Below, piece after piece: positions 15,048 to 59,433 of a stretch of DNA of 64,000 nucleotides (position 1 is the stretch's first letter; each line of letters opens with the position of its first letter). The position numbers and the translations under genes were made by a program. A model generated the notes under the pieces. That model did not search any database. It had not been told where the DNA came from and saw only the letters and a program-made list of their open reading frames with translations. This DNA is from Colwellia sp. BRX10-3 (GTDB lineage: Bacteria; Pseudomonadota; Gammaproteobacteria; Enterobacterales; Alteromonadaceae), in contig NZ_JACGWA010000002.1 of the NCBI RefSeq assembly GCF_014077505.1, positions 310,001-374,000 on the forward strand, given 5' to 3'.

Positions 15048-15245
15048 ATGTTAATATTAACTCGCCGAGTTGGTGAAACGTTGATGATCGGAGACGACGT
15101 CACAGTGACAGTGTTAGGGGTGAAAGGCAATCAGGTGCGTATTGGTGTTAACGCTCCAAAAGAAGTGTCGGTTCATCGTGAAGAAATATATATGAGAATT
15201 CAATCTGAAAAAGGTGAGGCCGAAGCCTCAGGGAATGAAAGTTAA
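15048..15245 (+). CDS. csrA: Carbon storage regulator CsrA
   Basis: This is the core-genome global RNA-binding regulator (65 residues). It binds GGA motifs in mRNA leaders as a dimer and controls translation and stability of mRNAs for carbon storage, motility and biofilm. The sequence [17 protein letters not shown] is the invariant N-terminus, with RNA-contact Arg6, and VHREEIY holds the C-terminal contact Arg44. The start has an AAAGGAAATTAAG ribosome binding site. It lies upstream of tRNA-Ser and tRNA-Arg as in E. coli. A second, very divergent CsrA-like gene lies in the island at 53283. Confidence 0.98.
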
Positions 15246-45290: not shown

Positions 45291-47846
45291 TTACAGTAAT
45301 TCTTTCAATTTATAGAGTAAATCTAAAGCCATTTTAGGGCTCAAGTCATTCACATCTACTGTGCTTAATTCTTCAATAACCGGGTGGCGCTTATCCATTA
45401 ATGACAATTGCTCAAATACTTGGGGCTCATGAGTTATAACAGAAGGTGCTTGCATGTTTTCAAGCTCAGCTAAGCGTTGTTTTGCTCGCTGAATAACACT
45501 TCTTGGTACACCAGCAAGTTGAGCTACTTGTAAACCAAAACTTTTACTCGCCGCACCTTCCTGAACCGTATGCATAAAGACAATGCTGTCACCATGTTCG
45601 ACCGCGTCAAGATGGACATTCGCTAAGGTATCTATTTGTTCAGCCAGTAAGGTTAATTCAAAATAATGGCTAGCAAAAAGGGTGAAGGCTTTAGTTTTTA
45701 TCGCGAGCATTTCAGCACAGGCCCAAGCCAATGATAAACCGTCATAAGTACTCGTACCACGACCAATTTCATCTAATAGTACTAAACTTTTATTGGTAGC
45801 ATTATGCAAAATATTGGCGGTTTCTGTCATTTCTACCATAAAGGTTGAACGACCACTGGCTAAATCATCTGAAGCACCAATACGGGTGAATATTCTATCT
45901 ACCATACCTATTTTTGCTGCACTTGCTGGCACATAGCAACCAATATGCGCCAGTAATACAATTAACGCAGTTTGACGCATATAAGTCGATTTACCGCCCA
46001 TATTAGGGCCCGTAATAATCAACATTTCTCGAGAGTCGTTCAGTACAACCGGATTGGCAATAAAAGGTTCAGTTGTCATTTGTTCAACCACTGCATGTCG
46101 ACCGGCTTCTATATTAATACCGCTGTCTTCTTGTAGTACTGGTTTAACATAATTTAACGTTTCGGCGCGTTCAGCAAAGGTAGTTAAGACATCAATTTCA
46201 GATAACGATTGTGCGAGTAATTGCAGTTTTTCTAACTCAGGTAATATTTGGTCAAATAAGGCTTCATATAAGCGTTTTTCAAGGGCAAGAAACTTACTTT
46301 GAGCTGAGAGCACTTTTTCTTCATGTTGCTTTAATTCGTTAGTAATAAAACGTTCGTTATTCTTTAAGGTTTGTCGGCGAATATAATCATCGGGTACATC
46401 TATAGCTGAGCTGCGGCTCATTTCAATATAGAAACCATGCACTCGGTTGTAGCCAACTTTTAGTGATTGAATACCCGTACGTTCTTTTTCGCGCGCTTCT
46501 AGTTGTGCTAAAAACTCTGTTGCACCGTCGCTTAAATCGCGCAGTACATCTAATTCGTCATTATACCCTGGCGCGATAACGCCACCGTCACGAATTAACA
46601 CTGGCGGGTTTTCAACAATCGCACTTTCTAATAGTGCTTGTGTTGCCGGTATTGGCTGACATTGCTTAATCAATGCGGCTAAGTGTATTTGTGAACAGCT
46701 AGCGGTTAGTGCTTGTAAGTCAGGTAAGTGCATTAAAGCATTACGTAACCGTGCAAAATCACGAGGACGGGCAGAGCGCAAAGCAATACGCGCTACAATG
46801 CGTTCAATGTCACCAAATTGTTTTAAGTTAGCATTAAGTTCAAAAGACAAATCTTGCTGTAGTATTTCTTCAATAGCGTTTTGACGGTTATTTAAGACCG
46901 TAAGATCGCGCAGTGGAAAATGTATCCAACGTTTGAGTAATCTTGAACCCATAGGTGTGGCTGCTTTATCAATAATTGCCGCTAGGGTATTTTCATTGCC
47001 ACCTTGTAGGTTTTGCGTTAATTCTAAATTACGACGAGTGGCCGCATCGAGAATAACTGCACTCGATGCGCTTTCACCAATAAGGGCCCTAATGTGCGGC
47101 ATTGCGGTACGCTGACTATCTTTTACATATTGAAATAAACAGCCTGCCGCCGCGATACCTAATGGTTTGTCTTCAACACCGAAACCTGACAATGACTGAG
47201 TACCAAACTGCTTATTGAGTAAGCTTTTACTGGTTTCTAAATCAAACTCCCAATCGGGACGTCGGCGCAAACCTTTACGGCCGGCAATAATATTACTAGC
47301 GATTAATGATTCAGGATATAACAATTCAGCTGGAGATAAACGTTGTAGTTCAGCTTGAACTTGCTCTTCAGTTCTAGGTTCCACTAAAACAAAACGGCCA
47401 CTGGTCATATCTAAATACGCTAGACCAAAACCTTCTGATGTTTGATGAACCGCAACAATTAAATTATCTTGTCGATCGCTCAATAGGGCTTCATCACTGA
47501 TGGTACCAGGTGTAACAACACGAACTACTTTACGCTCAACCGGACCTTTACTTGTCGCGGGATCGCCAATTTGTTCGCAAATAGCGACTGACTCTCCTAA
47601 TTTTACTAACTTAGCTAAATAACCGTCGACGGCATGATAAGGCACGCCAGCCATAGGAATGGCATTACCACCCGTTTTGCCACGTGCAGTTAATGAAATG
47701 TCGAGTAAATCAGATGCTTTTTTTGCATCATCAAAAAACAGCTCATAAAAATCACCCATACGATAAAAAATTAAAATATTAGGAAATTCTGCTTTAATGG
47801 TTAGGTACTGACGCATCATAGGGGTATGTGAGGATAAATCTTGCAT
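45291..47846 (-). CDS. mutS: DNA mismatch repair protein MutS
   Basis: This mismatch-recognition ATPase has 851 residues, close to E. coli (853). The N-terminal mismatch-reading motif is in [14 protein letters not shown] (Phe-x-Glu), and the C-terminal ATPase has Walker [15 protein letters not shown] and the [14 protein letters not shown] and [17 protein letters not shown] blocks. The gene appears intact. The accessory island begins immediately upstream of its start, so its promoter may be affected by the insertion. Confidence 0.97.
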
Positions 47847-48116: not shown

Positions 48117-49391
48117 ATGCTAAAAGAACGAAAATCTTTAAACGCAGCGACAATTAAAGCAATGAAGCACAAAGATAAAGATCTGTCGGATATAGAGGAA
48201 AATGAAGGTTTGCGCGTATCTTGTGCTAAAGCGGGCACTAAAACATTTTGTTATCGATATAAAAGTCCTATCACTAATAAATTATGCCAAATTAAAATTG
48301 GCCGATTTCCTTCTATATCACTAGCTGATGCTAGGGTGAAATTGCAAGAATTAAAAGTAATTCGTAATGATGGTCGTTGTCCCGCTAGTGAACAAAAAAT
48401 AGCTAAAAAAGATAAAGCTATAATTGAAAAAAAACTATCATCAAGAATGACTGTCGCGGATGTTATAGAACTTTATTTATCTCAGTACATCGAAGATCGT
48501 ACAGTTGATGGCAAGGTCATCGCTGGAGCAAGGAAGCAAAAAGGCCAAGATGAAACTAGAAGAACACTTTACTGTGATGCAGTAAAAGAGTTGGGTGACC
48601 GATATGCAGAGGACGTTACGCGAAAAAATATCGTTAATATGATCATGGGAATAGTTGAACGAGGCTCAAATGTCCAAGCTGGTAACGTGCTGAGAGAATT
48701 TAATGCCGCATACGAATACTCTATAGGACTTGAAAAGTTTCCTGATGAATTTGCCAATCCTGCCTTGTTAGCAAAAAACAGCCTCCGTCAGGCAAAAGTT
48801 CGTCTGACTTCAAAGAGAGCAACTCGAGTTTTTTCTGACAGGGAGTTATCCAAATTTTTGAATTGGCTACCTAGCTCTGCCTTTACTCAAACGCAAAAAA
48901 GAATTCTAAGGTTTACACTTTGGACAGGTTGCCGTACAGGGGAGGTCTGTGAAGCAGAGTGGAATGACATTGATTTAAATAAGGCAACATGGCACCTCAA
49001 AGCGACAAAAACGGATGTTGAAAGATATGTTCAATTATCAAAACAGGCGATTGACTTTTTGAGACAACTTCGTTTAGAAACAGGTAAGTATCTTTTCCCC
49101 TCGTTTAAAACCAAATTGCCTATTCAGCAAAAAGCTATCACTGAGCAAGCATGGCTAATGCGTAGGGATGAAAAAATGCTTGATATAGAGCATTGGGTCC
49201 CTCACGATCTTCGCCGTACAGTTAGAACAGGTTTATCTCGATTAAAGTGTAGAAATGAGGTTGCTGAAGCTGTACTGGGGCACGCTCGTTCAGGTATCGA
49301 AGGCACTTATGACTTACATAAATATGAAGAAGATTGTAAAGAATGGCTTCAAAAATGGGCTGATCACATGGATGAATTAATAACTTACTAA
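48117..49391 (+). CDS. Tyrosine integrase (P4-like, first integrase of the island)
   Basis: This site-specific recombinase moves the island into and out of the chromosome. In 424 residues it has an N-terminal arm-DNA-binding (DUF4102-like) domain (IKIGRFPSISLADARVKL), a core-binding SAM-like domain (about 95-200), and the catalytic domain with Arg in TGCRTGEVCEAEW, the HDLRRT box and the C-terminal LGHARSGIEGTYDLHKY with the Tyr nucleophile. It looks intact. It marks the left border of the island next to mutS. Confidence 0.93.
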   Translation: MLKERKSLNAATIKAMKHKDKDLSDIEENEGLRVSCAKAGTKTFCYRYKSPITNKLCQIKIGRFPSISLADARVKLQELKVIRNDGRCPASEQKIAKKDKAIIEKKLSSRMTVADVIELYLSQYIEDRTVDGKVIAGARKQKGQDETRRTLYCDAVKELGDRYAEDVTRKNIVNMIMGIVERGSNVQAGNVLREFNAAYEYSIGLEKFPDEFANPALLAKNSLRQAKVRLTSKRATRVFSDRELSKFLNWLPSSAFTQTQKRILRFTLWTGCRTGEVCEAEWNDIDLNKATWHLKATKTDVERYVQLSKQAIDFLRQLRLETGKYLFPSFKTKLPIQQKAITEQAWLMRRDEKMLDIEHWVPHDLRRTVRTGLSRLKCRNEVAEAVLGHARSGIEGTYDLHKYEEDCKEWLQKWADHMDELITY

Positions 49392-49853: not shown

Positions 49854-50162
49854 ATGAAGCGTGAACTAAATGAAGCCTTGAGAGCAGTCAAGGAAGCAGA
49901 GCTTGCTCTTATGAAAGCATCAAAAGAAGCCGCTGCATCTAAAGACTTATTCAAATTGACTGAATTAAATGACTGTGTTGATGACTTTTGTAAGAAAACT
50001 CCTTCAACTAAAGGCGAGATTTGCCTCCTTGCTGATATTTCATCGTCAACACTCACAGCAGCACTGAAAAACCCAGAAAAAGCCACTATGACTACCATTT
50101 CTTCTATTGCATCGGTGATTGGCTTAGAAATCTTAATAGGGCGCCACAATGGATCAGTTTAG
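49854..50162 (+). CDS. hipB: HipB-type antitoxin with XRE helix-turn-helix (HipBST system)
   Basis: This 102-residue protein begins with a helical, charged segment (about 1-35, ELNEALRAVKEAELAL) and ends with a helix-turn-helix (about 50-100: KGEICLLADISSSTLTAALKNPEKATMTTISSIASVIGLEI). It should be the DNA-binding autorepressor. It overlaps the next gene by 14 bp, which suits translational coupling. The three-gene order with a short HipA-N protein and a kinase identifies HipBST and not the two-gene hipBA. Confidence 0.8.
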   Translation: MKRELNEALRAVKEAELALMKASKEAAASKDLFKLTELNDCVDDFCKKTPSTKGEICLLADISSSTLTAALKNPEKATMTTISSIASVIGLEILIGRHNGSV

Positions 50163-50508
50163 ACCCCCTATGCCTAATCGTATTGGTTATGTCTATTGCA
50201 ACAATCATTTTGCTGGTGTACTTACCGAATTTAGCGACTTAAAACAACAAAGCTATACGTTTGAATATGATGCTGATTACTTAGATTTTGGTGCTCCGAT
50301 TGGGTACCGTTTTGCATTAACTCCTAACAAGTTTGAGTTTGATACTTTTCCTACCTTTTTTGCTAATCTCATTTCTGAAGGTTGGTTACGTACCCACCAA
50401 GCAAACAAAGCACGGCTTGATAAAGCAGACTCTTTTGGTTTGCTGTTAGAGAACGGAAAAGAGTTAATTGGTGCGATTAGTGTTTTAAAAAACAAAATTA
50501 AGGAATAA
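50149..50508 (+). CDS. hipS: HipS-type antitoxin (HipA N-terminal domain protein)
   Basis: This 119-residue protein matches only the N-subdomain 1 of HipA kinases (Couple_hipA type), with GYVYCNNHFAGVLTE, FEYDADYLDF and a tail ending LENGKELIGAISVL. In HipBST systems this separate domain is the actual antitoxin of the kinase. It overlaps hipB and lies 2 bp before hipT. Confidence 0.85.
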   Translation: MDQFRPPMPNRIGYVYCNNHFAGVLTEFSDLKQQSYTFEYDADYLDFGAPIGYRFALTPNKFEFDTFPTFFANLISEGWLRTHQANKARLDKADSFGLLLENGKELIGAISVLKNKIKE

Positions 50509-50510
50509 CC

Positions 50511-51506
50511 ATGTTTTGTAAAGGCGATTTACGCAATACGAAAGAAAAAGAACTACATCATGGCTTTTCTACGTCTCACCTCAAAGCAATGTACCAACAA
50601 TCAGAGCCCGTTTCAGTCAAGGGAACTTCGGATTCGTTTGATGAAATGGTGGTGGATCATACAACTGGTACCTCTATTTCAGGCGTTCAACGTAAAATGT
50701 TTATGACCCTAGAAAATAATGTTTTAGTGCCCAGTAACCAAGGCGAATACATCGTAAAACCCACACCAAAACATTTTCCTCAGTTAGCAGAAAATGAACA
50801 CGCCATCATGAAGATAGCGGAGCGGTTAAAAATAAAGGTCGCAAAGTGCTCAGTGGCGCCTTTTGAAGATGGTGAGTTGGCGTATGTGACAAAACGATTT
50901 GATTTAACATCAACAGCAGGTATTAATTTCTTCATTGAAGATGGCGCTAGTATTTGTGATGTTCACCCCTTGAATAAGGGTAGCGATGCGCTGTCTTATG
51001 AAACGTGTATAAAAACCATGGTAAAGGCGTGTGGTGGTGCTACTGCCATTGCAGCTCAAGCCGTAAAACTTGTGTTGTTTTCTTATATTGTGGGAAACAA
51101 TGATTTACATTTAAAAAACTTTTCACTGCAACGCAAGCCCTCAAGCAAAACGCATATCATGGACGGATTCACCCCCCTATACGATGTACTTAGCGTAGCG
51201 CCATATCCTGAGTATGATACGGTGTATTTATCATTATCTTTATTGGAAATTGAAACGGAAGGTGACTTTAGCTCAAGCCATGACGTTTATGGGTATTACA
51301 CGCAATATGACTTTATTTTGTTGTTAGGGGCGTTAGGGATTAAACAGCGAGTAGCTGAAAAAGTGATCATGAACTTTACTGATGATCTTCAAAAAGCAGC
51401 AACTGAAGTCATCGCTTATTCATCCCTTGATGATAAGCTTAAAACGATCATCATGAAGCGTATTAATGATCGCTGTATATCTATCAAACAACCGATCTTA
51501 TATTGA
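50511..51506 (+). CDS. hipT: HipT-type serine/threonine toxin kinase
   Basis: This 331-residue kinase lacks the N-terminal subdomain found in full HipA. It has the Gly-rich loop with the two autophosphorylation serines (SIS at residues 55-57, then GVQRKM), a catalytic-loop-like GNNDLHLKNFSL with Asp and Asn, and the metal-binding Asp in LYDVLS. In E. coli O127 the homologous HipT phosphorylates tryptophanyl-tRNA synthetase, halting translation. The same target here is inference. The gene appears intact with an AAGGAATAACC ribosome binding site. Confidence 0.85.
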   Translation: MFCKGDLRNTKEKELHHGFSTSHLKAMYQQSEPVSVKGTSDSFDEMVVDHTTGTSISGVQRKMFMTLENNVLVPSNQGEYIVKPTPKHFPQLAENEHAIMKIAERLKIKVAKCSVAPFEDGELAYVTKRFDLTSTAGINFFIEDGASICDVHPLNKGSDALSYETCIKTMVKACGGATAIAAQAVKLVLFSYIVGNNDLHLKNFSLQRKPSSKTHIMDGFTPLYDVLSVAPYPEYDTVYLSLSLLEIETEGDFSSSHDVYGYYTQYDFILLLGALGIKQRVAEKVIMNFTDDLQKAATEVIAYSSLDDKLKTIIMKRINDRCISIKQPILY

Positions 51507-51917
51507 TAGAGGCATCACATGATTATTACTCGACCAACAAGCACCACAGAGGTTGTCTGACAGCGCGGTAATGAAAGCCTCTTTATTGTTACTTACTTTA
51601 GCTTGGTATGCCTTGTTAGGTGGACTCGAACAGTGGATAGTTAGCCCTGAGTTTAAACCTTACAATGTGTTTTTTATTAAGTGTAAACCTCGTTTACAAT
51701 CCTCAGGTTTTTGCCGAACCACCCCACCAAATCATCTAAGGATTGCTGTTAAGAGTGTCCTAATGGGGAGGAATTTAGTTAGATCTTTTTAAAACTAAAA
51801 TGGCAATATTGTAAAGGCTTCCAGAGCACAAGTAGTATGTTCTAAGCCGCGATGATACTTAATATTTTCTTTGCTATAAACGTATCAATCTAGGTCACTA
51901 ATTATATAGCATACTAA
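51507..51917. other. Spacer between hipT and the tandem array
   Basis: About 410 bp. A 79-residue frame at 51553-51792 has an unlikely composition and no supported start, so it is not called. No RNA gene or terminator is evident. Confidence 0.4.
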
Positions 51918-52506
51918 ATAGGGTCGTCCACCTTAATAAAGTTCCCCTAAGTGGAATCGCTGTTTTGAAGAATAGGGTAGTTCAACTTGGCAAAAGTTTC
52001 CTAAGTGGAATCGGTGTTTTTGAAGAATAGGGTCGTCCACCTTAGTAAAGTTCCCCTAAGTGGAATCGCTGTTTTTGAAGAATAGGGTAGTTCAATTTGG
52101 CAAAAGTCTCCTAAGTGGAATCGGTGCTTTTGAAGAATAGGGTCGTCCACCTTAGTAAAGTTCCCCTAAGTGGAATCGCTGTTTTTGAATAATAGGGTAG
52201 TTCAATTTGGCAAAAGTCTCCTAAGTGGAATCGCTGTTTTTGAAGAATAGGGTAGTTCAATTTGGCAAAAGTCTCCTAAGTGGAATCGCTGTTTTTGAAG
52301 AATAGGGTAGTTCAATTTGGCAAAAGTCTCCTAAGTGGAATCGGTGTTTTTGAAGAATAGGGTAGTTCAACTTGGCAAAAGTCTCCTAAGTGGAATCGGT
52401 ATTTTTGAAGAATAGGGTAGTTCAACTTGGCAAAAGTTTCCTAAGTGGAATCGCTGTTTTTGAAGAATAGGGTAGTTCAACTTGGCAAAAGTCTCCTTAG
52501 TCGACT
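51918..52506. repeat. 55-bp tandem repeat array, about 11 units of two types
   Basis: Units beginning ATAGGGT recur at 51918, 51972, 52027, 52082, 52137, 52192, 52247, 52302, 52357, 52412 and 52467, a 55-bp period (first interval 54). The last unit is cut short. Type A starts ATAGGGTCGTCCACCTTAG and type B starts ATAGGGTAGTTCAA; the order is A-B-A-B-A-B-B-B-B-B-B. Each unit contains an imperfect stem: TCCACCTTAG (or TTCAACTTGG) can pair with CTAAGTGGA. There are no unique spacers, so it is not a CRISPR array. No ORF runs through it. Confidence 0.95.
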
Positions 52507-52592
52507 TTTGAGGTATTTGTGATCTCAAAAAAAGTGATTACTTCAATTCAATCACTCTGTTTTGAAAATAGGGCTGAATAGCTAGCGGTTGT

Positions 52593-53099
52593 TTATTTTA
52601 TCTTAGTTAGTAGTCTTTTTATATCAGCCTTATTTTTTAGTACATCTAGTTGTCGGTGACAATTAGGGCAGAGTGCCGCAAAGTTACACGCTTGATACTT
52701 ATCAGCACTGGCGCCTTGTTCAATATATGCCAATTCCGTATACGGAGATCCATCAGGCAAGCAAAAAGGCATAAAATTTTCACATAGCTCACAAATACCT
52801 CCTGAACGCTCAAGTAAAGCAGCTCTGAGCTCTTTAATTTGTGGTTCAAGTCTTTCTTTGCTCTTTTCATTTCTAATAGGCATAAACATCTTATGAACAT
52901 AATCATTGATATCTAAACCCAGTAGTGTAAATAGCTTTTCAGCGGTTTCAATTGACAGATTTTTATCTCCGACTCGTACTGCTGATATATGGCTTCTTGT
53001 TTTACCAAGCAATTTGGCAAGAGCAGCATCACTTTTAATATTATGAACAGCTTTTGTTTGATCTAATAGCTCATTCCATGGACTATTTTTGGTATTCAT
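52593..53099 (-). CDS. XRE helix-turn-helix protein with HNH-like zinc domain
   Basis: In 168 residues, residues about 18-75 form an XRE-type HTH (DAALAKLLGKTRSHISAVRVG with NLSIETAEKLFTLLGL). Residues about 100-160 form an HNH-like domain with zinc pairs CELC and CPNCHRQLD. The usual first catalytic His of the HNH core (normally within an HHxxP-type stretch) is missing: the sequence there reads TELAYIEQG. So it may bind but not cut DNA. It is divergent from the CsrA-like gene, and three operator copies lie between them, which suggests autoregulation. Confidence 0.7.
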   Translation of the reverse strand: MNTKNSPWNELLDQTKAVHNIKSDAALAKLLGKTRSHISAVRVGDKNLSIETAEKLFTLLGLDINDYVHKMFMPIRNEKSKERLEPQIKELRAALLERSGGICELCENFMPFCLPDGSPYTELAYIEQGASADKYQACNFAALCPNCHRQLDVLKNKADIKRLLTKIK

Positions 53100-53143
53100 T
53101 TTGTGTGCCTAAGAATTGATGATTTAACGGGATAAAGAACTAT

Positions 53144-53252
53144 TGTACACCTTTTGGTAATCACTTATAAGGGGCAATACAATAGAGTGTACACCAAATG
53201 GTTGACATTTGATGCGCTATGTAATAAATTAAGTGTACATCAATTGGTGTAC
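53144..53252. promoter_or_regulatory. Three operator copies in the divergent promoter
   Basis: Related sites lie at 53144-53158 (TGTACACCTTTTGGT), 53188-53202 (TGTACACCAAATGGT) and 53234-53252 (TGTACATCAATTGGTGTAC, an almost perfect palindrome). A -35 TTGACA (53202-53207) and a -10 TAAATT (53225-53230, 17-bp spacing) for the plus strand lie between the second and third sites. The sites would block the promoter. The likely binder is the divergent XRE protein. Confidence 0.75.
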
Positions 53253-53282
53253 GTTTGTTTTAAATATCATGGAGTATTATTT

Positions 53283-53738
53283 ATGTTGTCATTGTCACGA
53301 AAAAGTTCACAGTCAATTCTTATTGGAGCTGATTTATTAAAAGTCATACACATTATGAAATCTGGAGTACATGTTGATATCCACCTAGAAGAAGGCGTAA
53401 CGAAAACAGTAAGGTTAATAGAGGGAGACTCATTTAGCCTAAGGGAGGGAGAGGTATATATTCATGCCATTGGTAAAAACTTGGTTCGTTTTGGGTTTGA
53501 TTATCCAGAGCATATATCAATTATGCGCACTGAAATATTACGTAAAACACCTGAACAAAAATTAGTTCAACCTCAAAATATTGTTGAGCTTCCACTGTTA
53601 ATAAAAACCGAGGATACCAATACAGTTTTTAATAAAAAAAGGAAGATTGAAGTTCTTGAACTGTTGTCAAAGTTCTCCCCTAAAAAGCTATCATATACCA
53701 TAGATAGTATTGCTGATGACATTAGAAATATAGCGTAG
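53283..53738 (+). CDS. Divergent CsrA-like RNA-binding protein with a 39-residue insertion
   Basis: From the ATG at 53283 (GGAG site 8 bp upstream) this is 151 residues. MLSLSRKSSQSILIGAD aligns with the CsrA start [17 protein letters not shown], and residues 57-86 (EVYIHAIGKNLVRFGF, then DYPEHISIMRTEI) align with Csr[17 protein letters not shown] and [16 protein letters not shown]-contact Arg6 and the Arg44 equivalent (Arg82) are conserved. Residues 18-56 are an insertion and 87-151 a C-terminal extension, neither found in CsrA. It is 43 bp upstream of the second integrase, in the same apparent operon. CsrA family membership is inferred from this alignment. Confidence 0.7.
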   Translation: MLSLSRKSSQSILIGADLLKVIHIMKSGVHVDIHLEEGVTKTVRLIEGDSFSLREGEVYIHAIGKNLVRFGFDYPEHISIMRTEILRKTPEQKLVQPQNIVELPLLIKTEDTNTVFNKKRKIEVLELLSKFSPKKLSYTIDSIADDIRNIA

Positions 53739-53781
53739 AAATCACGTTTATAAATTTTTTCATGGTAAGTCTGAGGTGATT

Positions 53782-55089
53782 ATGCGAATAGATAAAAAGC
53801 AAGATATTGAAAGTTTAATTAGACAAAACAAAGGGACATTGGCTAAAAAATGTCAATATGATGTGCTAGTTTGTGTTGAGGATATACCACGCAGAACTGG
53901 CTCTCTATACCTCAATATTAACCCTACTGGTGCCATGAGTTTTAGACTACTTCAGCGCTATAAAGGGAAGCGAGAATTTACTGTGTTAGGCCAATATTCA
54001 CCTGATAACTCAATAGGGCTAACCTTAGCTAAGGCACGTGAAAAAATGCGTGAGTTGGCTAAGATTATTCATAGTTTGAATGGTGAAAAGAGCCTTAAAC
54101 AGCATCAAAAAGAACAAAGATTATTAAAAGAAATAGAACAGCAGAGCATGCAGAGAAAAGGCACTGTTGAAGAACTCATTGATGATTATACAAATCATAT
54201 GAAACTCGAAGGTAAGCGTTCATTCAATCAAGTAAAGCATGAATTATTAGCTAATATGAAATCATTTTTATCAGTAGAAGCTGCAAAAATCACTTCTAAT
54301 GATGTCTGTAAAGTATTAGGTTGGTTGATTCAAAGGGGAGCAGAAGTTCAGTCTAATCGAGTACGATCATATATCATGAGTGCCATGAATTTTGGTATAA
54401 AATATGATCATGACCCTCGCTATTTACATCGAGGTAAAAAGTATAATATAGACCGTAATCCAGTAGCTTCAATACCACGTCAATCGTCAGCTGAACAGGC
54501 TCGTGATAGAGTGCTTTCAACGGAAGAAGTCGCGACTCTCCTGCATAACCTAAGTGACAATCACTTCTCTAATCAAGTCGAACATTTTATTAAAATACTA
54601 TTACTCACTGGAGGTCAGCGACCATATGAGTTATCAGTAGCTAAGTGGTCAGACATTGACTTCGATAATAGAGTTTGGACGATACAAAGCAGTGTGTCAA
54701 AGAACAAAAAAATTCACCTTGTTCCACTTGTTGAATCAGCAATCATACAGCTAAAAGAGCTGTTAGTACTAAATGGTGAAGGTAAGCTTTTGTTTCCTCA
54801 AAGGTATAATTTAGACGAACCAATGCCAACATCAACACTGGCGCAAGCTATTAGGAATTACTGTAAACAAAAAAGTGTAAATCAATTCCAGCCTAAAGAT
54901 TTCCGTCGAACTATTAAGACAAAAATGGGAGAGTTAGGAGTTGAAAAATCTGTGAGAGATAGACTTCAGAACCATGCTTTACAGGATGTCTCCTCTCGTC
55001 ATTATGACCGGTATGATTACCAAAAAGAGAAGTTAAGTGCACTTATTACGTGGGAAAAATGGTTATTAAATCTTAATAAAATTGATTAA
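53782..55089 (+). CDS. Tyrosine integrase (second integrase of the island)
   Basis: This 435-residue recombinase starts at the ATG 53782 with an AGGTG site. It has an arm-DNA-binding N-terminal domain (REFTVLGQYSPDNSIGLTLA), a core-binding domain (about 130-225) and the catalytic domain with TGGQRPYELSVAKW (Arg), the FRRTIKTKM box and the HYDRYDYQ end with the Tyr nucleophile. It seems intact. It is distinct from the integrase at 48117, so the island may be a composite of two elements. Confidence 0.92.
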   Translation: MRIDKKQDIESLIRQNKGTLAKKCQYDVLVCVEDIPRRTGSLYLNINPTGAMSFRLLQRYKGKREFTVLGQYSPDNSIGLTLAKAREKMRELAKIIHSLNGEKSLKQHQKEQRLLKEIEQQSMQRKGTVEELIDDYTNHMKLEGKRSFNQVKHELLANMKSFLSVEAAKITSNDVCKVLGWLIQRGAEVQSNRVRSYIMSAMNFGIKYDHDPRYLHRGKKYNIDRNPVASIPRQSSAEQARDRVLSTEEVATLLHNLSDNHFSNQVEHFIKILLLTGGQRPYELSVAKWSDIDFDNRVWTIQSSVSKNKKIHLVPLVESAIIQLKELLVLNGEGKLLFPQRYNLDEPMPTSTLAQAIRNYCKQKSVNQFQPKDFRRTIKTKMGELGVEKSVRDRLQNHALQDVSSRHYDRYDYQKEKLSALITWEKWLLNLNKID

Positions 55090-55470
55090 AAAACTTACCA
55101 TTAAGGAGTATGGAAATTCATTTTATTAAGCTAAAAAGGCTAACTCCCAGTAATAAAATCACTACAAAAGAGTGTAATATTAATGCAGATGTTTAATTGA
55201 TTTTAAGCCTATTCAGTAATTGATTGGCCTGATATCTTAGTTAATAGCTATCCTAAATCCAATTGATTGAGTAGGAGTTTTCTTGGTCTAACATGCAATG
55301 CCCTGATGTTGCATTAGAAGGCTATTTAATATCAAACTGCTGTTCTTCATCACAGTGAAGTTTTGTCCTGGCTCATCGATAAATTGAGTTGAAAAAAAAC
55401 GTATTTTTACACATCTAAAGTTACTCAACTTCGAGTTTAAGTTTTTTTGTCTTTTTTGTGTCACTCCCCC
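55090..55470. other. Non-coding stretch after the second integrase
   Basis: About 380 bp of AT-rich sequence with no supported ORF. It should contain an attachment core for the second integrase, but no repeat within this window identifies it. Confidence 0.4.
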
Positions 55471-55598
55471 CGTTACTTAGACAAATATTCTGTCCGAGTA
55501 ACGCTTCATTAATTGGTCCGAGTAACGCCCATTAATTCTGTCCTAGTAACGGTTTAGAAATTCGTGAAGTAACGGATCTTGATTTTGTCCGAGTAACG
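55471..55598. repeat. 24-bp-period iteron-like direct repeats with one inverted copy
   Basis: The core GTCCGAGTAACG or a close variant ends at 55503, 55527, 55551, 55574 and 55598, a steady 24-bp period (one interval 23). The fourth copy is the most degenerate. An inverted copy, CGTTACTTAGACA at 55471-55483, faces the first and can form a hairpin with it. The spacing and pattern resemble iterons of replication or transfer origins, or a multi-site operator. No replication protein gene is next to it. Confidence 0.8.
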
Positions 55599-55849
55599 GT
55601 TTTCGTCTTGTTAACTTTTAAGGCGTTCTGTTGTAATATTTGATTAGTTATGCAGGTAACTTAGTTAATAAAATTAAGAAGCATGAAACTTTTTATTAGC
55701 ACTGAAAAGTCACTTAAAAAGACACTTAAAATATTTTTTATTTGCCTAGTTCAATATTACCTTAGCTACAGCGTAGTAAAATCGGTCGTAGAATAAAATA
55801 TTACCTGCTACATCCACCGACTATGAATCGATGGATATAGAAGGGTAAT
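55599..55849. other. Non-coding stretch below the unknown gene pair
   Basis: About 250 bp of AT-rich sequence after the iteron-like repeats. No ORF, RNA gene or clear terminator is seen. Confidence 0.35.
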
Positions 55850-56617
55850 TTAACGCTCTATGATTGTTTCTTCACCTTCAAAGTTAATTGGTAACAAGCC
55901 AAGTAATTTAATCGCTTTTTTATTTAATAAATAACTTCTAGTAAAACCATTAAAGTTTGTAATTTTCATTTCACTTTTATCAATGATAATTTTTTGTGGG
56001 TAGGATAAAGCCTCTTTGTCTCTTACAAGAAAAAATAGTACTGTTTCTCTACCGTATAATGCCGAACCATATCTTGCGATAGCTAATACATCCTCAATGG
56101 TTACTTGTCCAAAATTTTTATAAGGATCGAATCTTGTTGTTGAAACAAGAGATGAGGTTATCTCAATGATTTGTTCTGCAAAATTTTCAGCTAGAATTCT
56201 TCCGTTTTCAATGTCAGAAAAACTATGTTCTCGCCATTTAGTATTAGTTCTAGCTGCCCTAATTCTTATCAGTAATTTTCTGCTATTAAAATCGAGTGCA
56301 CTCACATCGAAATAATCACAGATTTTTAGTCTTTTCTTCACGGAATAAACGCTATGGTCTTGCTCAAAATAACCGACAGATAAAATAACTTTTATTTGCC
56401 TATAGGGCTCAATCAAAATCACTTCGCCCCAATGGCTAATGTTGATATCGAATTCATTTAATTTAAACTGCTTGAAGAGTAACATAATTGTTTTCAAAAC
56501 CTGAGGAAGTTCTTTATCACTGACATTAACTCCGCTAATTTCTTGTTGATGATAGGGAAGGGCTCTGCGAATTTTCTTTGCTCGATTTATTGATTGAATT
56601 AACTTATTTATATTCAT
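55850..56617 (-). CDS. Unknown island protein, second gene of a pair
   Basis: I do not recognise this family. From the ATG at 56617 (AAGG site upstream) it is 255 residues; a longer frame from 56668 would overlap the preceding gene more. It has no signal peptide or membrane helix. The N-terminus is basic and helical (NRAKKIRRALPYHQQ). The middle has mixed alpha/beta character with an Arg-rich stretch (RKLLIRIRAART). It overlaps the upstream gene by 14 bp, so the two are coupled and may form a complex. Confidence 0.6.
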   Translation of the reverse strand: MNINKLIQSINRAKKIRRALPYHQQEISGVNVSDKELPQVLKTIMLLFKQFKLNEFDINISHWGEVILIEPYRQIKVILSVGYFEQDHSVYSVKKRLKICDYFDVSALDFNSRKLLIRIRAARTNTKWREHSFSDIENGRILAENFAEQIIEITSSLVSTTRFDPYKNFGQVTIEDVLAIARYGSALYGRETVLFFLVRDKEALSYPQKIIIDKSEMKITNFNGFTRSYLLNKKAIKLLGLLPINFEGEETIIER

Positions 56618-57461
56618 CTTCAGAGCCTTTACATAGATTAATTCGAATAGACTCTTCTCGTTTACCAATTTCCCCTTTCTGAGTGATAATAAGACCTGAT
56701 AAAGTTAAAGTACTTGAATAGTAATCTACTCGGTCGATCTTTAACTGAACTTTCCTGCCTTCATGCCAAGATGAGTCGGTACAAATCCAGTCACCAATTG
56801 TTAGGCCAAAAGTTCGGTAGAGTAATTTTTTACTTAGCTCTTCCATCGTTAACTCAATGGCTTCATTTTTATTATTGAGATGAGACATTTCCTGTGCAAG
56901 CTCAGTTAAACATTCAGATGAACTTGAGTTCAATTGCTCTACTGTATCTTCGTTTAAATTTGCCAGTGCATTTCTTACTTCATCTAGTGCGAAATAACGA
57001 TCATTTATTTTTTCAAATTCAGTTTGTTGAGCCTCAAGCTCTGAAGCTATTGCTTTAGCAAAAGGCAGCTGCAGATTTGCTAAGTTTATCGCTTTAAATT
57101 CACGGCCATTTTCAAGTATTTCATCAAGAGGAACTTCAGATGTTCTGAAGTACTTTTGCTTATAGGGCGGTAAGTAACCTGTGAAGTAAGCTGTTGATTC
57201 CGTCACATGAATATAGGTAGGTATGTCGATATGATATCGATTGGTAAGCTCGAAAAACCAAGTGATGCCGGTAATCTTTTTACTCACTTCAGTTAATTGA
57301 TGCTGATTTAAAACATCTATCAATGAGTTAATACAGCTTATTAATGAAGCGTTAAAATCGCTTAAGCAATACAAAGGCATTGGGTATAACGGTGCCTGAA
57401 TAGCTTTATTCTCAACCAATATTGGCTTTATGCTTAAACAGTACAGCTTACTTTTTGCCAT
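56604..57461 (-). CDS. Unknown island protein, first gene of a pair
   Basis: I do not recognise this family. The 285 residues start with a beta-rich N-terminal part (MAKSKLYCLSIKPILVEN). A long, acidic and helical middle (about 130-200, ELEAQQTEFEKINDRYF, LAQEMSHLNNKNEAIEL) suggests a coiled coil, and the C-terminus is a beta-rich domain (GDWICTDSSWHEGRKVQLKI). The pair lies between the iteron-like repeats and the Dpd genes. A defence or maintenance role is possible by location only. Confidence 0.6.
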   Translation of the reverse strand: MAKSKLYCLSIKPILVENKAIQAPLYPMPLYCLSDFNASLISCINSLIDVLNQHQLTEVSKKITGITWFFELTNRYHIDIPTYIHVTESTAYFTGYLPPYKQKYFRTSEVPLDEILENGREFKAINLANLQLPFAKAIASELEAQQTEFEKINDRYFALDEVRNALANLNEDTVEQLNSSSSECLTELAQEMSHLNNKNEAIELTMEELSKKLLYRTFGLTIGDWICTDSSWHEGRKVQLKIDRVDYYSSTLTLSGLIITQKGEIGKREESIRINLCKGSEDEYK

Positions 57462-57761
57462 TTGCTAACTCTCAATTAACTTGCAATTGAAAGCGTAGTT
57501 GAAAAGTTGGCTAGGTGCTAAGTAGGGGGCTTTAGAAATCTGATAGGTTTGCACATACCATAATGCTGGTTATCTTGATGTTTAATATAAAAGAGTGTGT
57601 CTAGTCCTTACGTAATATGTAAAACAACAGCTGATTTATAAGTTCAAAACAGTAAAATAGTCGAATGTTATAACTGTTTGTATTAATGTACTCATTTGTT
57701 TCATCAACTCTTCTATCTGCAGTCCATACTACTCAGATTTACTTTCATCAAAAGGAACTTT
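57462..57761. other. Divergent intergenic region
   Basis: About 300 bp between the unknown pair (minus) and the next gene (plus). Promoters for both must lie here. The AAAGGAACTTT site serves the plus gene. No repeat or operator is recognised. Confidence 0.4.
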
Positions 57762-58172
57762 ATGACGGTACAACTATCAGAGACAATCATGTATGAAGGA
57801 AAAAGTAGATCTCTTTTATCATGCCCTCTAAGTGACTATTTTTCACTGACCAATACACCATCCCCTTTTCAAATGAACTGTACGGCTCTCTGGCGAGGGT
57901 ATCTAGGGAGATGGGAAATAAAAAAAGAACGGTTGTATTTAATGCAACTTGACGCAGAATTTGATGATGATAACGAAATAACTCTTCAAGATATATTTCC
58001 AGGGTTTTCAGAACGAGTTTTTGCTCATTGGTATACTGGTGAGCTAAGAATTCCAGATGGTGAGCAGATGAAATATGAGCATATCGGCTTTGGTAGTCAA
58101 TATGAGAGGGATATATTGATTCAAGTTAAGCAAGGTGTTGTAGAAAAGGTTTTAGTTAAAAATAACGTTTAG
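57762..58172 (+). CDS. Conserved hypothetical protein
   Basis: From the ATG at 57762 (clear AAAGGAAC site) it is 136 residues. A longer frame from 57696 lacks a site. The sequence (YEGKSRSLLSCPLSDYF, CTALWRGYLGRWEIKKERLYL, DIFPGFSERVFAHWYTGELRIPDGE) is compact and looks like a conserved small single-domain protein of unknown function. I cannot name the family. It is followed by the membrane protein at 58184. Confidence 0.7.
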   Translation: MTVQLSETIMYEGKSRSLLSCPLSDYFSLTNTPSPFQMNCTALWRGYLGRWEIKKERLYLMQLDAEFDDDNEITLQDIFPGFSERVFAHWYTGELRIPDGEQMKYEHIGFGSQYERDILIQVKQGVVEKVLVKNNV

Positions 58173-58183
58173 GAGAGCTCAGA

Positions 58184-58687
58184 ATGATTTACCTTATTAG
58201 CTATTTATCAATAGGCTTTATCTATAGCCTAGGTGCATCACTGTATAATAATTTTTTTAAAAAAAAAGTTACTTCGGTTGATCAAATATCTACAGGCTAT
58301 TTAATTCTAGGTTTTATCGTTGGTTCATTCATTTGGCCATTTATGGCTTATTTCCATGTAAACTCATATTTAAATCCATCATTCCAACCTGAAGTCTTTA
58401 GTATAAAGCAAAAGGACTTAATTGAAGCAATGTCAGTTTTAGACGTAGAAGTAAAAGAAATTGTATATGACCCATTAAACGCTGTTCAGCAAGTGCCATT
58501 TGGCCACCTAAATAGTACATGGGAAGAGTTTAAAGCCAATTATAGTCCATCAACACTATGGTCTTTTAAGTCTGAGTATAAAGACTACTCAGGAGTGGTG
58601 ATTAAAGAAGGGTATGCGAAGTTAGAAGATGATGGGACTATAAATACATATTTTATACATCAAAACTATTCCAAGCCAATAAAGTAA
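58184..58687 (+). CDS. Small membrane protein of unknown function
   Basis: This is a 167-residue protein with two N-terminal membrane helices (LISYLSIGFIYSLGAS and GYLILGFIVGSFIWPFMAYF) and a soluble C-terminal part of about 100 residues. The ATG has a GGAG site and lies 11 bp after the previous stop, so the two are probably co-transcribed. No family is recognised. Confidence 0.65.
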   Translation: MIYLISYLSIGFIYSLGASLYNNFFKKKVTSVDQISTGYLILGFIVGSFIWPFMAYFHVNSYLNPSFQPEVFSIKQKDLIEAMSVLDVEVKEIVYDPLNAVQQVPFGHLNSTWEEFKANYSPSTLWSFKSEYKDYSGVVIKEGYAKLEDDGTINTYFIHQNYSKPIK

Positions 58688-58752
58688 CGTGTACTACCTT
58701 TTAATAAATTTTAAGAACTAAATTAGCGATATTTCACCAACCAGAAGAACTT

Positions 58753-59433
58753 ATGAATATAGAAACCACTTATAAAATAAACGAAATTTTTGAAACTCTC
58801 CAAGGGGAAGGTTCTTTTACCGGTCAACCATCGATCTTTATAAGGTTACAAGGTTGCCCTGTGGGGTGTTCTTGGTGTGATACTAAACACACATGGGAAG
58901 TATCTCTAGAGCAAGAAGTAGAGCGAAATAATATTATTTCCAAACAATCAGAAAATGATAATTGGGGAAATTTTACGATTGAGCAATTAAAGGAACTATT
59001 TATCTCTGAAGGTTATCAAGCTAAACACATAGTGATAACCGGTGGTGAACCGTGTATGTACGATTTGAAACCACTTTGTAATGATTTTGAAGCTATAGGT
59101 TATAGTTGCCAGGTTGAAACCTCAGGTACTTTTGAAGTCCAAGTTTCAGATCTATGTTGGGTAACTGTGTCTCCTAAAGTTAATATGAAAGGGGGCTATA
59201 AAGTACTATATTCAGCTCTTTCAAGAGCAAATGAAATAAAACATCCTGTTGCAACGGAGCAACATATAGATGACTTAAAAGCTTTGCTAATTGAGCATGC
59301 AATTGTGAATAAGCAGATTTATATCCAACCAATAAGCCAGAAGAAGAGAGCGACAGAACTAGCTATACAATCATGTATTGAAAACAACTGGAGATTGTCA
59401 GTACAAGTACATAAATATATTGGAATTGAATAG
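58753..59433 (+). CDS. queE: 7-carboxy-7-deazaguanine synthase QueE
   Basis: This radical SAM enzyme converts 6-carboxytetrahydropterin to 7-carboxy-7-deazaguanine on the route to preQ0. In 226 residues it is of the E. coli type: NEIFETLQGEGSFTGQPSIF, the cluster motif GCPVGCSWCDTKHTWE (Cys-x3-Cys-x2-Cys), the SAM-binding ITGGEPC and QPISQKKRATELA near the end. In this island it most likely supplies preQ0 for DNA modification (Dpd) as well as, or instead of, tRNA queuosine. It lies 230 bp before the dpdE-like gene on the same strand. Confidence 0.92.
   Translation: MNIETTYKINEIFETLQGEGSFTGQPSIFIRLQGCPVGCSWCDTKHTWEVSLEQEVERNNIISKQSENDNWGNFTIEQLKELFISEGYQAKHIVITGGEPCMYDLKPLCNDFEAIGYSCQVETSGTFEVQVSDLCWVTVSPKVNMKGGYKVLYSALSRANEIKHPVATEQHIDDLKALLIEHAIVNKQIYIQPISQKKRATELAIQSCIENNWRLSVQVHKYIGIE

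Follow-up and report, generated by a model that had tools for sequence, protein, structure and literature searches.

Much of what CsrA does is accounted for by its being a dimer whose two RNA sites can bridge two GGA elements, and work on RsmE has shown that an RNA site is formed by strand 1 (b1) of one unit and strand 5 (b5) of the other. Homologs of the RsmQ and CsrT type are of ordinary one-unit size and form homodimers. CsrA homologs on mobile elements are already known from two earlier papers (PMC7366521; PMC9928087). In RsmN, a homodimer, a 16-residue helix lies between strands 2 and 3, according to the paper on that protein (PMC3791407), which also gives the sheet order of the RsmA dimer as b5A-b2B-b3B-b4B-b1A.

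The window analyzed here, a 64,000-nucleotide stretch of the Colwellia sp. BRX10-3 genome, encodes a 151-aa protein that resembles RsmQ and the other plasmid and ICE homologs (CsrT of Legionella) in being a CsrA-family regulator on a putative mobile element. It differs from them in its surroundings, as no operon of the HTH, CsrA-like, and integrase kind was found for the RsmQ/CsrT type in the literature consulted. With CsrA, RsmA, and RsmE (PF02599) the protein shares the strand pattern, L4, R6, an equivalent of R44, and the loop before strand 5; it differs in its length of 151 aa with a tail, in the two units that its chain appears to hold, in the loss of one strand 5, and in the single RNA site expected of it. 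Weighing the evidence below, we think it probable that this protein consists of two fused CsrA units, acts as a monomer with one RNA site, is made together with the integrase, and binds GGA-type RNAs. No paper on a one-chain CsrA pair was among the matches listed from the open-licence PMC literature. The features of the locus are collected in Table 1.

Table 1. Features of the CsrA-like locus in window coordinates; labels of repeats, strands, and regulatory sites are predictions
Feature	Position	Strand	Details
Divergent HTH_3 protein with C-terminal HNH-like zinc domain	52593..53099	-	HTH_3 27.5 bits, cut-off 23
Operator-like repeats, TGTACACC..TGGT	53144..53253		At 53144, 53188, and 53234; last one palindromic
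Best promoter-like site, TTGACA-17-TAAATT	53202..53230	+	Among the operator-like repeats
AUGGA (ANGGA motif) over the ribosome-binding site of the CsrA-like gene	53269..53273	+	Three of three loci
Putative tandem CsrA-like gene, 151 aa	53283..53738	+	Pfam CsrA match; orthologs L003 and L004; dN/dS
Repeat 1, residues 1-36 (b1-b4 without b5; L4, R6, K7)	53283..53390	+	AlphaFold2 strands 2-6, 11-14, 17-24, 29-34
Repeat 2, residues 39-95 (b1'-b5'; R82)	53397..53567	+	AlphaFold2 strands 40-45, 50-53, 56-63, 68-73, 80-83
C-terminal tail, residues 96-151 (56 residues)	53568..53735	+	Two helices in a low-confidence model
Gap and integrase leader	53739..53781	+	No GGA, no terminator-like site
Tyrosine integrase	53782..55089	+	ATG 53782; GTG 53776, chosen by the ORF caller, also possible
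Repeats of (G)TCCGAGTAACG type, candidate arm-type sites	55486..55600		Downstream of the integrase; 94-99% identity among the three loci

The first-pass annotation had described a 151-residue open reading frame at 53283 with two CsrA-matching halves, a 39-residue spacer, and a tail, and all of these parts are present. Pfam CsrA (PF02599) matches the product in two stretches with 39.9 bits (E 4e-10), above the gathering threshold of 27. The NCBIfam csrA model (TIGR00202) gives 39.8 bits, under its equivalog cut-off of 70.1, which makes the protein a member of the CsrA family and not a CsrA equivalog. The gene named earlier as the normal csrA of the host, at 15048, is indeed ordinary (91.4 bits), and these two genes are the only PF02599 matches in the host genome at E≤0.001. 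Both RNA-contact arginines are retained, as had been claimed, in the form of R6 and R82 (aligned with R44 of CsrA), and none of the RNA-contact residues L4, R6, and R82 varies among the three orthologs. Taken whole, the CsrA-like gene is under purifying selection, with dN/dS values of 0.147 and 0.193 against the two orthologs; dS is saturated over residues 1 to 92, for which no ratio is given, and in the linker (residues 93 to 111) only amino-acid-changing differences were counted (dN 0.33 and 0.44, dS 0).

Full-length relatives were found only in Colwellia, namely in L003 (Colwellia sp. 12G3, 77%) and L004 (an uncultured Colwellia MAG, 75%), and both loci have the order of a divergent HTH/HNH gene, the CsrA-like gene, and an integrase. 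Genome draws from the family (196), order (394), class (369), and phylum (299), with the host's own genome included, returned that genome as the only whole-query match among the matches listed; the others were partial, and those whose frame could be read are ordinary CsrAs. A tblastn search with the whole window protein gave no plasmid or phage match at E≤0.01. With residues 1 to 95 at E≤10 it gave 1 phage and 84 plasmid records, of which those listed had E values of 3 or worse and were taken as chance.

Homology to L003 extends from 52481 to 58687 with short gaps and homology to L004 from 52593 (as protein) to about 55843, and the sequences past these limits do not align. Stretches were taken from four of 17 same-genus genomes searched with mutS, and in each of them homology ends at 47829, next to that gene. 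The homology limits and this mutS-side break together point to a horizontally exchanged block in a variable region. The block ends have no common 9-mer. From the integrase and the differing flanks we infer that the block is mobile. The repeats after the integrase (Table 1) are candidate arm-type integrase sites, and an sRNA in this region was set aside, as such sites in our judgement fit the repeats better.

The block and its surroundings show several further features. The three elements are mosaic over 52590 to 55890, where identity in 150-bp steps ranges from 0.63 to 0.99 and different pairs are closest in different parts. The DNA for residues 1 to 92 is 98.9% identical between L003 and L004 and 71 to 72% identical to the window, and that for residues 112 to 151 is 92 to 98% identical in all pairs. 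The non-coding stretch from 55090 to 55740, which holds GTCCGAGTAACG-type repeats, is 98 to 99% identical to L004 (86% for the integrase gene) and 73 to 94% to L003. A 55-bp unit is repeated 10.3 times (51938 to 52501, 89% matches) immediately to the left of the HTH gene, and a two-unit probe matched the host genome only at this array (7/7); the left end of L003 has a single AAAAGTCTCCTTAGT. A hairpin-like inverted repeat, CATCCACCGACTATGAATCGATGGATAT, lies at 55810 to 55845, and its letters are changed in L004 yet still pair when judged by eye. Toward mutS, the stretches 48117 to 49391 and 50149 to 51506 hold a second tyrosine integrase beside mutS and then HipA-type ORFs (Couple_hipA and HipA_C in two ORFs). 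From 55850 to 58687 there are ORFs without a Pfam match above cut-off, which are common to L003 (8543 to 10742) and shorter there.

The pairing of a CsrA-like gene with an integrase appears to be particular to this type of element, since a CsrA match is found at none of 29 other integrase loci of the family (roughly 3.3 to 4.3 kb each, the window's own locus being the sole one of 30) and an integrase at 5 of the 80 ordinary-CsrA viral loci kept from 310 (flanks up to 3 kb). That integrases seldom stand beside mobile CsrAs also favors another account of the protein's role, namely that it mainly rewires host translation, like the plasmid protein RsmQ, and that the integrase link is one of shared timing only. 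RsmQ provides a precedent (PMC9928087), and CsrA genes on many plasmids and phages have been described (PMC7366521). The linkage of the CsrA-like gene to the HTH gene and the integrase at all three loci argues against this account, which we regard as possible, if on the doubtful side.

The spacer between the CsrA-matching halves had been read as a 39-residue insertion between strands 2 and 3. This is probably wrong, as the relatives and the structure model point to a tandem duplication, with the spacer probably belonging to a second CsrA repeat. The 92-aa protein of Pseudomonas phage vsMR aligns with residues 1 to 95 of the window protein at a score of 69 (shuffle mean 26, reached in 0 of 1000 shuffles). 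A search with the vsMR protein matched 85 of 72,556 plasmid records, 14 of which cover at least 80% of it, and three of these 14 were opened (Xanthomonas euvesicatoria pXCV183, Stenotrophomonas maltophilia pACYCa.6E, and Xanthomonas citri plB). In the three plasmid proteins and in vsMR, the CsrA profile matches twice over overlapping positions (7-26, 7-33, or 9-25). The score of the second match was reached by 0, 2, 2, and 7 of 500 extra-segment shuffles for pXCV183, Stenotrophomonas, X. citri, and vsMR, respectively; the position test is weaker, as the start of the second match was reached by 32, 23, 41, and 42 of 500. At the level of sequence comparison, these results demonstrate a duplication in the plasmid and vsMR relatives. 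Among the 4745 ORFs of at least 70 aa in the collected loci, two CsrA matches per ORF occur only in the three plasmid proteins, the vsMR protein, and the Colwellia-type proteins.

The "Carbon storage regulator" proteins of the Xanthomonas and Stenotrophomonas plasmids (113 to 116 aa) and the vsMR protein have the doubled layout proposed for the window protein, from which they differ in their tails and to which they are 24 to 28% identical. Unlike the window locus, the vsMR and plasmid stretches fetched have no match to a home-made integrase profile; the annotation of two of the plasmids places a tyrosine recombinase about 4 kb from the doubled CsrA. In X. citri plB (L202, 4001 to 4634), the doubled gene is directly followed by an ordinary 62-aa CsrA gene, and this pair is possibly a hint of the origin or use of the doubled form.

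The proteins of Vibrio phages V-YDF132 (158 aa) and PG28 (157 aa) differ from the doubled CsrAs in having one real profile match each, with repeat 2 matching CsrA at 31.4 and 27.9 bits, so that the profile does not show doubling; their first half reads by eye as b1-b4. Unlike the window gene, their genes sit between dikinase and phosphatase genes. In each of three Vibrio phage records opened (L205, L249, and L250), a protein of 157 to 160 aa lies between the genes for a dikinase (PEP-utilizing enzyme) and a tyrosine phosphatase, and the V-YDF132 protein matches 17 Vibrio phage records at E≤1, four of them over at least 80%. In a paper on a Vibrio phage (PMC12038007), ORF99 is named CsrA and adjoins ORF100, a tyrosine phosphatase, a neighbor that also flanks the V-YDF132 and PG28 proteins. 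Relatives of the window, vsMR, and V-YDF132 proteins were absent from the viral contigs searched. Several other candidates were rejected: the 160-aa protein of Vibrio phage 1.215.A has no CsrA match by sequence (0.6 bits), gp210 of Pseudomonas phage Phabio has a layout that is not CsrA-like, the proteins of Burkholderia phage BcepIL02 and Escherichia phage Bas95 are ordinary short CsrAs, and 13 viral loci found via the plasmid protein encode one-unit CsrAs (12 whole and 1 cut by the contig end).

For the window protein itself, an AlphaFold2 model of residues 1 to 92 (pLDDT 89.8, pTM 0.79) has nine strands in the order b1-b4 and then b1'-b5', with both halves within one chain. It was computed as a single chain from an alignment of the two orthologs with 35 ordinary CsrAs as padding. 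The extra segment scores 92 to 96 in ten-residue blocks and is covered by 3 of the 38 alignment rows; the ordinary CsrA rows span only residues 1 to 18 and 57 to 92, so the segment was placed from three sequences. When AlphaFold2 was run for the 151-aa protein on the three orthologs alone, no usable model was obtained (pLDDT 33.5), which means that the nine-strand result leans on the ordinary CsrA rows. Within repeat 1, b1 is the best-conserved strand, and within repeat 2 the CsrA profile matches residues 59 to 93. The last 55 residues have no Pfam match at E≤1, and a PDB chain that matches them at E 0.47 was taken as chance; residues 112 to 151 are 95% identical to both orthologs.

In Foldseek searches against viral models, 11 of 1032 matches (E≤10) reach E≤0.001, these being among the best 50. 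The best match is a 114-aa "Carbon storage regulator" of an uncultured phage (TM 0.89 on the query and 0.72 on the target, rmsd 1.7). Against the PDB, none of 744 matches reaches E≤0.001. The unswapped RsmN and RsmF stand at ranks 8, 9, and 23 with weak E values (target TM 0.64, 0.61, and 0.60), below unrelated beta proteins; they are the only CsrA-type chains among the best 50 of the 744 matches, where no swapped CsrA occurs.

Sequence tests of the window's extra segment gave results at shuffle level. Its placements against CsrA by PSSM were reached in 649 and 233 of 1000 shuffles, and hhalign found no meaningful match to CsrA. For the window protein and the two orthologs, an equally early start of the second hmmsearch match was reached in 458, 60, and 59 of 500 shuffles, and an equally high score in 490, 254, and 220 of 500. 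Profile positions matched twice are limited to 21-25 in the window protein; L003 and L004 also have positions matched twice, but within shuffle level. Aligned alone with the extra segments of the relatives, the segment of the window protein also stays within chance (vsMR 92, pXCV183 533, Stenotrophomonas 327, and V-YDF132 41 of 1000), which indicates that the full-length scores partly reflect the CsrA ends. Duplication in the window protein therefore rests on the model and on the layout common to the relatives.

The competing view holds that the protein is an ordinary CsrA unit whose strands 2 and 3 are separated by 39 inserted residues, in the manner of RsmN/RsmF of Pseudomonas aeruginosa, and that it forms a homodimer with two RNA sites. 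The lack of a significant CsrA sequence match in the Colwellia-type extra segment is in its favor, as is the presence of the RsmN insertion at the same place (PMC3791407). The RsmN insertion is, however, a helix of 16 residues, whereas the approximately 39 extra residues here are modelled as strands, so that comparison with the RsmN/RsmF type (a helical insertion and no C-terminal helix), suggested in the first-pass annotation, speaks against an insertion of that kind. In addition, the sequences of the relatives with this layout reveal duplications, and the same fold appears in phage models made by others. Overall, we consider an insertion unlikely. An internal tandem duplication, by comparison, would yield a single-chain pseudo-dimer and not a strand-swapped homodimer with the insert outside, and the protein most likely folds as a monomer whose sandwich has one strand fewer than the ten of CsrA.

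The number of RNA sites expected of such a duplicated protein was considered from strand scores, obtained by placing each canonical strand, without gaps, where it scores highest within each half. Repeat 1 has a strong strand 1 (12.5 in the window protein, 24.6 in vsMR, and 21.7 in the plasmid proteins), and repeat 2 has a strong strand 5 (8.5, 14.1, and 19.4 to 19.9, respectively). Across the window protein, vsMR, and the three plasmid proteins, repeat 1 lacks strand 5 (-4.6 to 0.1), and repeat 2 has a degenerate strand 1 (-3.1 to 1.8). Given the order of strands in the RsmA sheet, losing the b5 of one unit should remove one of the two sites. The protein is thus probably a one-site monomer, whose single composite RNA site would be formed by strand 1 of repeat 1 (L4 and R6) and strand 5 of repeat 2 (R82). 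One GGA element would be bound per molecule, and bridging of two GGA elements is predicted to be impossible. The orthologs in L003 and L004 have a weak b1' (6.2 versus 12.5 for b1), which makes a weak second RNA site possible there. In the V-YDF132 protein, b5' is kept (12.2) and b1 is not (-1.5).

The gene downstream is a genuine tyrosine integrase by Pfam (Phage_integrase, 70.8 bits; Arm-DNA-bind_3, 27.1 bits, cut-off 27), and the reported distance of 43 bp from the CsrA-like gene holds when counted from ATG 53782. The 43-bp gap has neither a terminator-like nor a plus-strand promoter-like site and is near-identical in all three loci, which suggests that the two genes are probably co-transcribed; the promoter sharing asserted earlier stands as this probable co-transcription. 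The divergent HTH/HNH protein matches PHROG HTH and HNH families, with Pfam HNH under its cut-off. Its gene is present in all three loci, and the protein is likely a repressor. The operator-like repeats are kept with few changes in the three loci. The region has 13 promoter-like sites against 13.8 in shuffles and is therefore not significant by count; one of its two terminator-like sites, at 53230 to 53257, coincides with the palindromic leader repeat. We propose that transcription would start from the promoter amid the operator-like repeats, beside the divergent HTH gene, and would include the integrase, and that once repression is lifted the CsrA-like protein would most likely bind GGA-type RNAs. 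By binding AUGGA at its own ribosome site it would hold back expression of the operon, and further proposed targets are host mRNAs or Csr sRNAs.

The own-leader AUGGA, found in all three loci, is weak evidence for such feedback because GGA is expected anyway for a Shine-Dalgarno sequence. Leader folding gave no common hairpin presenting AUGGA, and the operon has about as many ANGGA motifs as shuffled sequence (10 versus 9.3). Rfam has no match at E≤1 over 51000 to 59000, and hence no known sRNA decoy lies there. The earlier proposal of translational control, in which the protein would bind the integrase leader, fits the adjacency and probable co-transcription of the two genes in all three loci. 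A search of the integrase leader, however, found no GGA in any of the three loci, and the lack of CsrA matches at the 29 other integrase loci indicates that such integrases do not need a CsrA-like protein. We find this proposal, which is the weakest part of the earlier interpretation, quite improbable. A probable one-site, single-chain CsrA is more interesting than the insertion first described. Excisionase genes often occupy the position beside an integrase, and the gene here lies between the operator-like region and the integrase with no other small gene there and has a conserved tail, yet the RNA-contact residues L4, R6, and R82 do not vary among the three orthologs and we know of no CsrA that binds DNA specifically, so a CsrA fold turned into a DNA-binding recombination directionality factor is very improbable.

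With the plasmid and phage relatives taken into account, it is in our estimation marginally probable that plasmids, phages, and islands carry a scattered family of one-site, single-chain CsrA pseudo-dimers that would bind GGA RNA with no bridging of two sites and could compete with or block the two-site CsrA of the host. An engineered one-site CsrA heterodimer was reportedly made by Mercante et al. in 2009. A one-chain, one-site CsrA would, if true, be a natural variant that tests the purpose of the second site. The finding also suggests that a duplication can go unnoticed in proteins labelled as CsrA with an insertion. If this reading is correct, mobile elements would gain a monovalent protein that competes with the central translation regulator of the host, and at the Colwellia locus this one-site CsrA would be wired to a repressor and an integrase.
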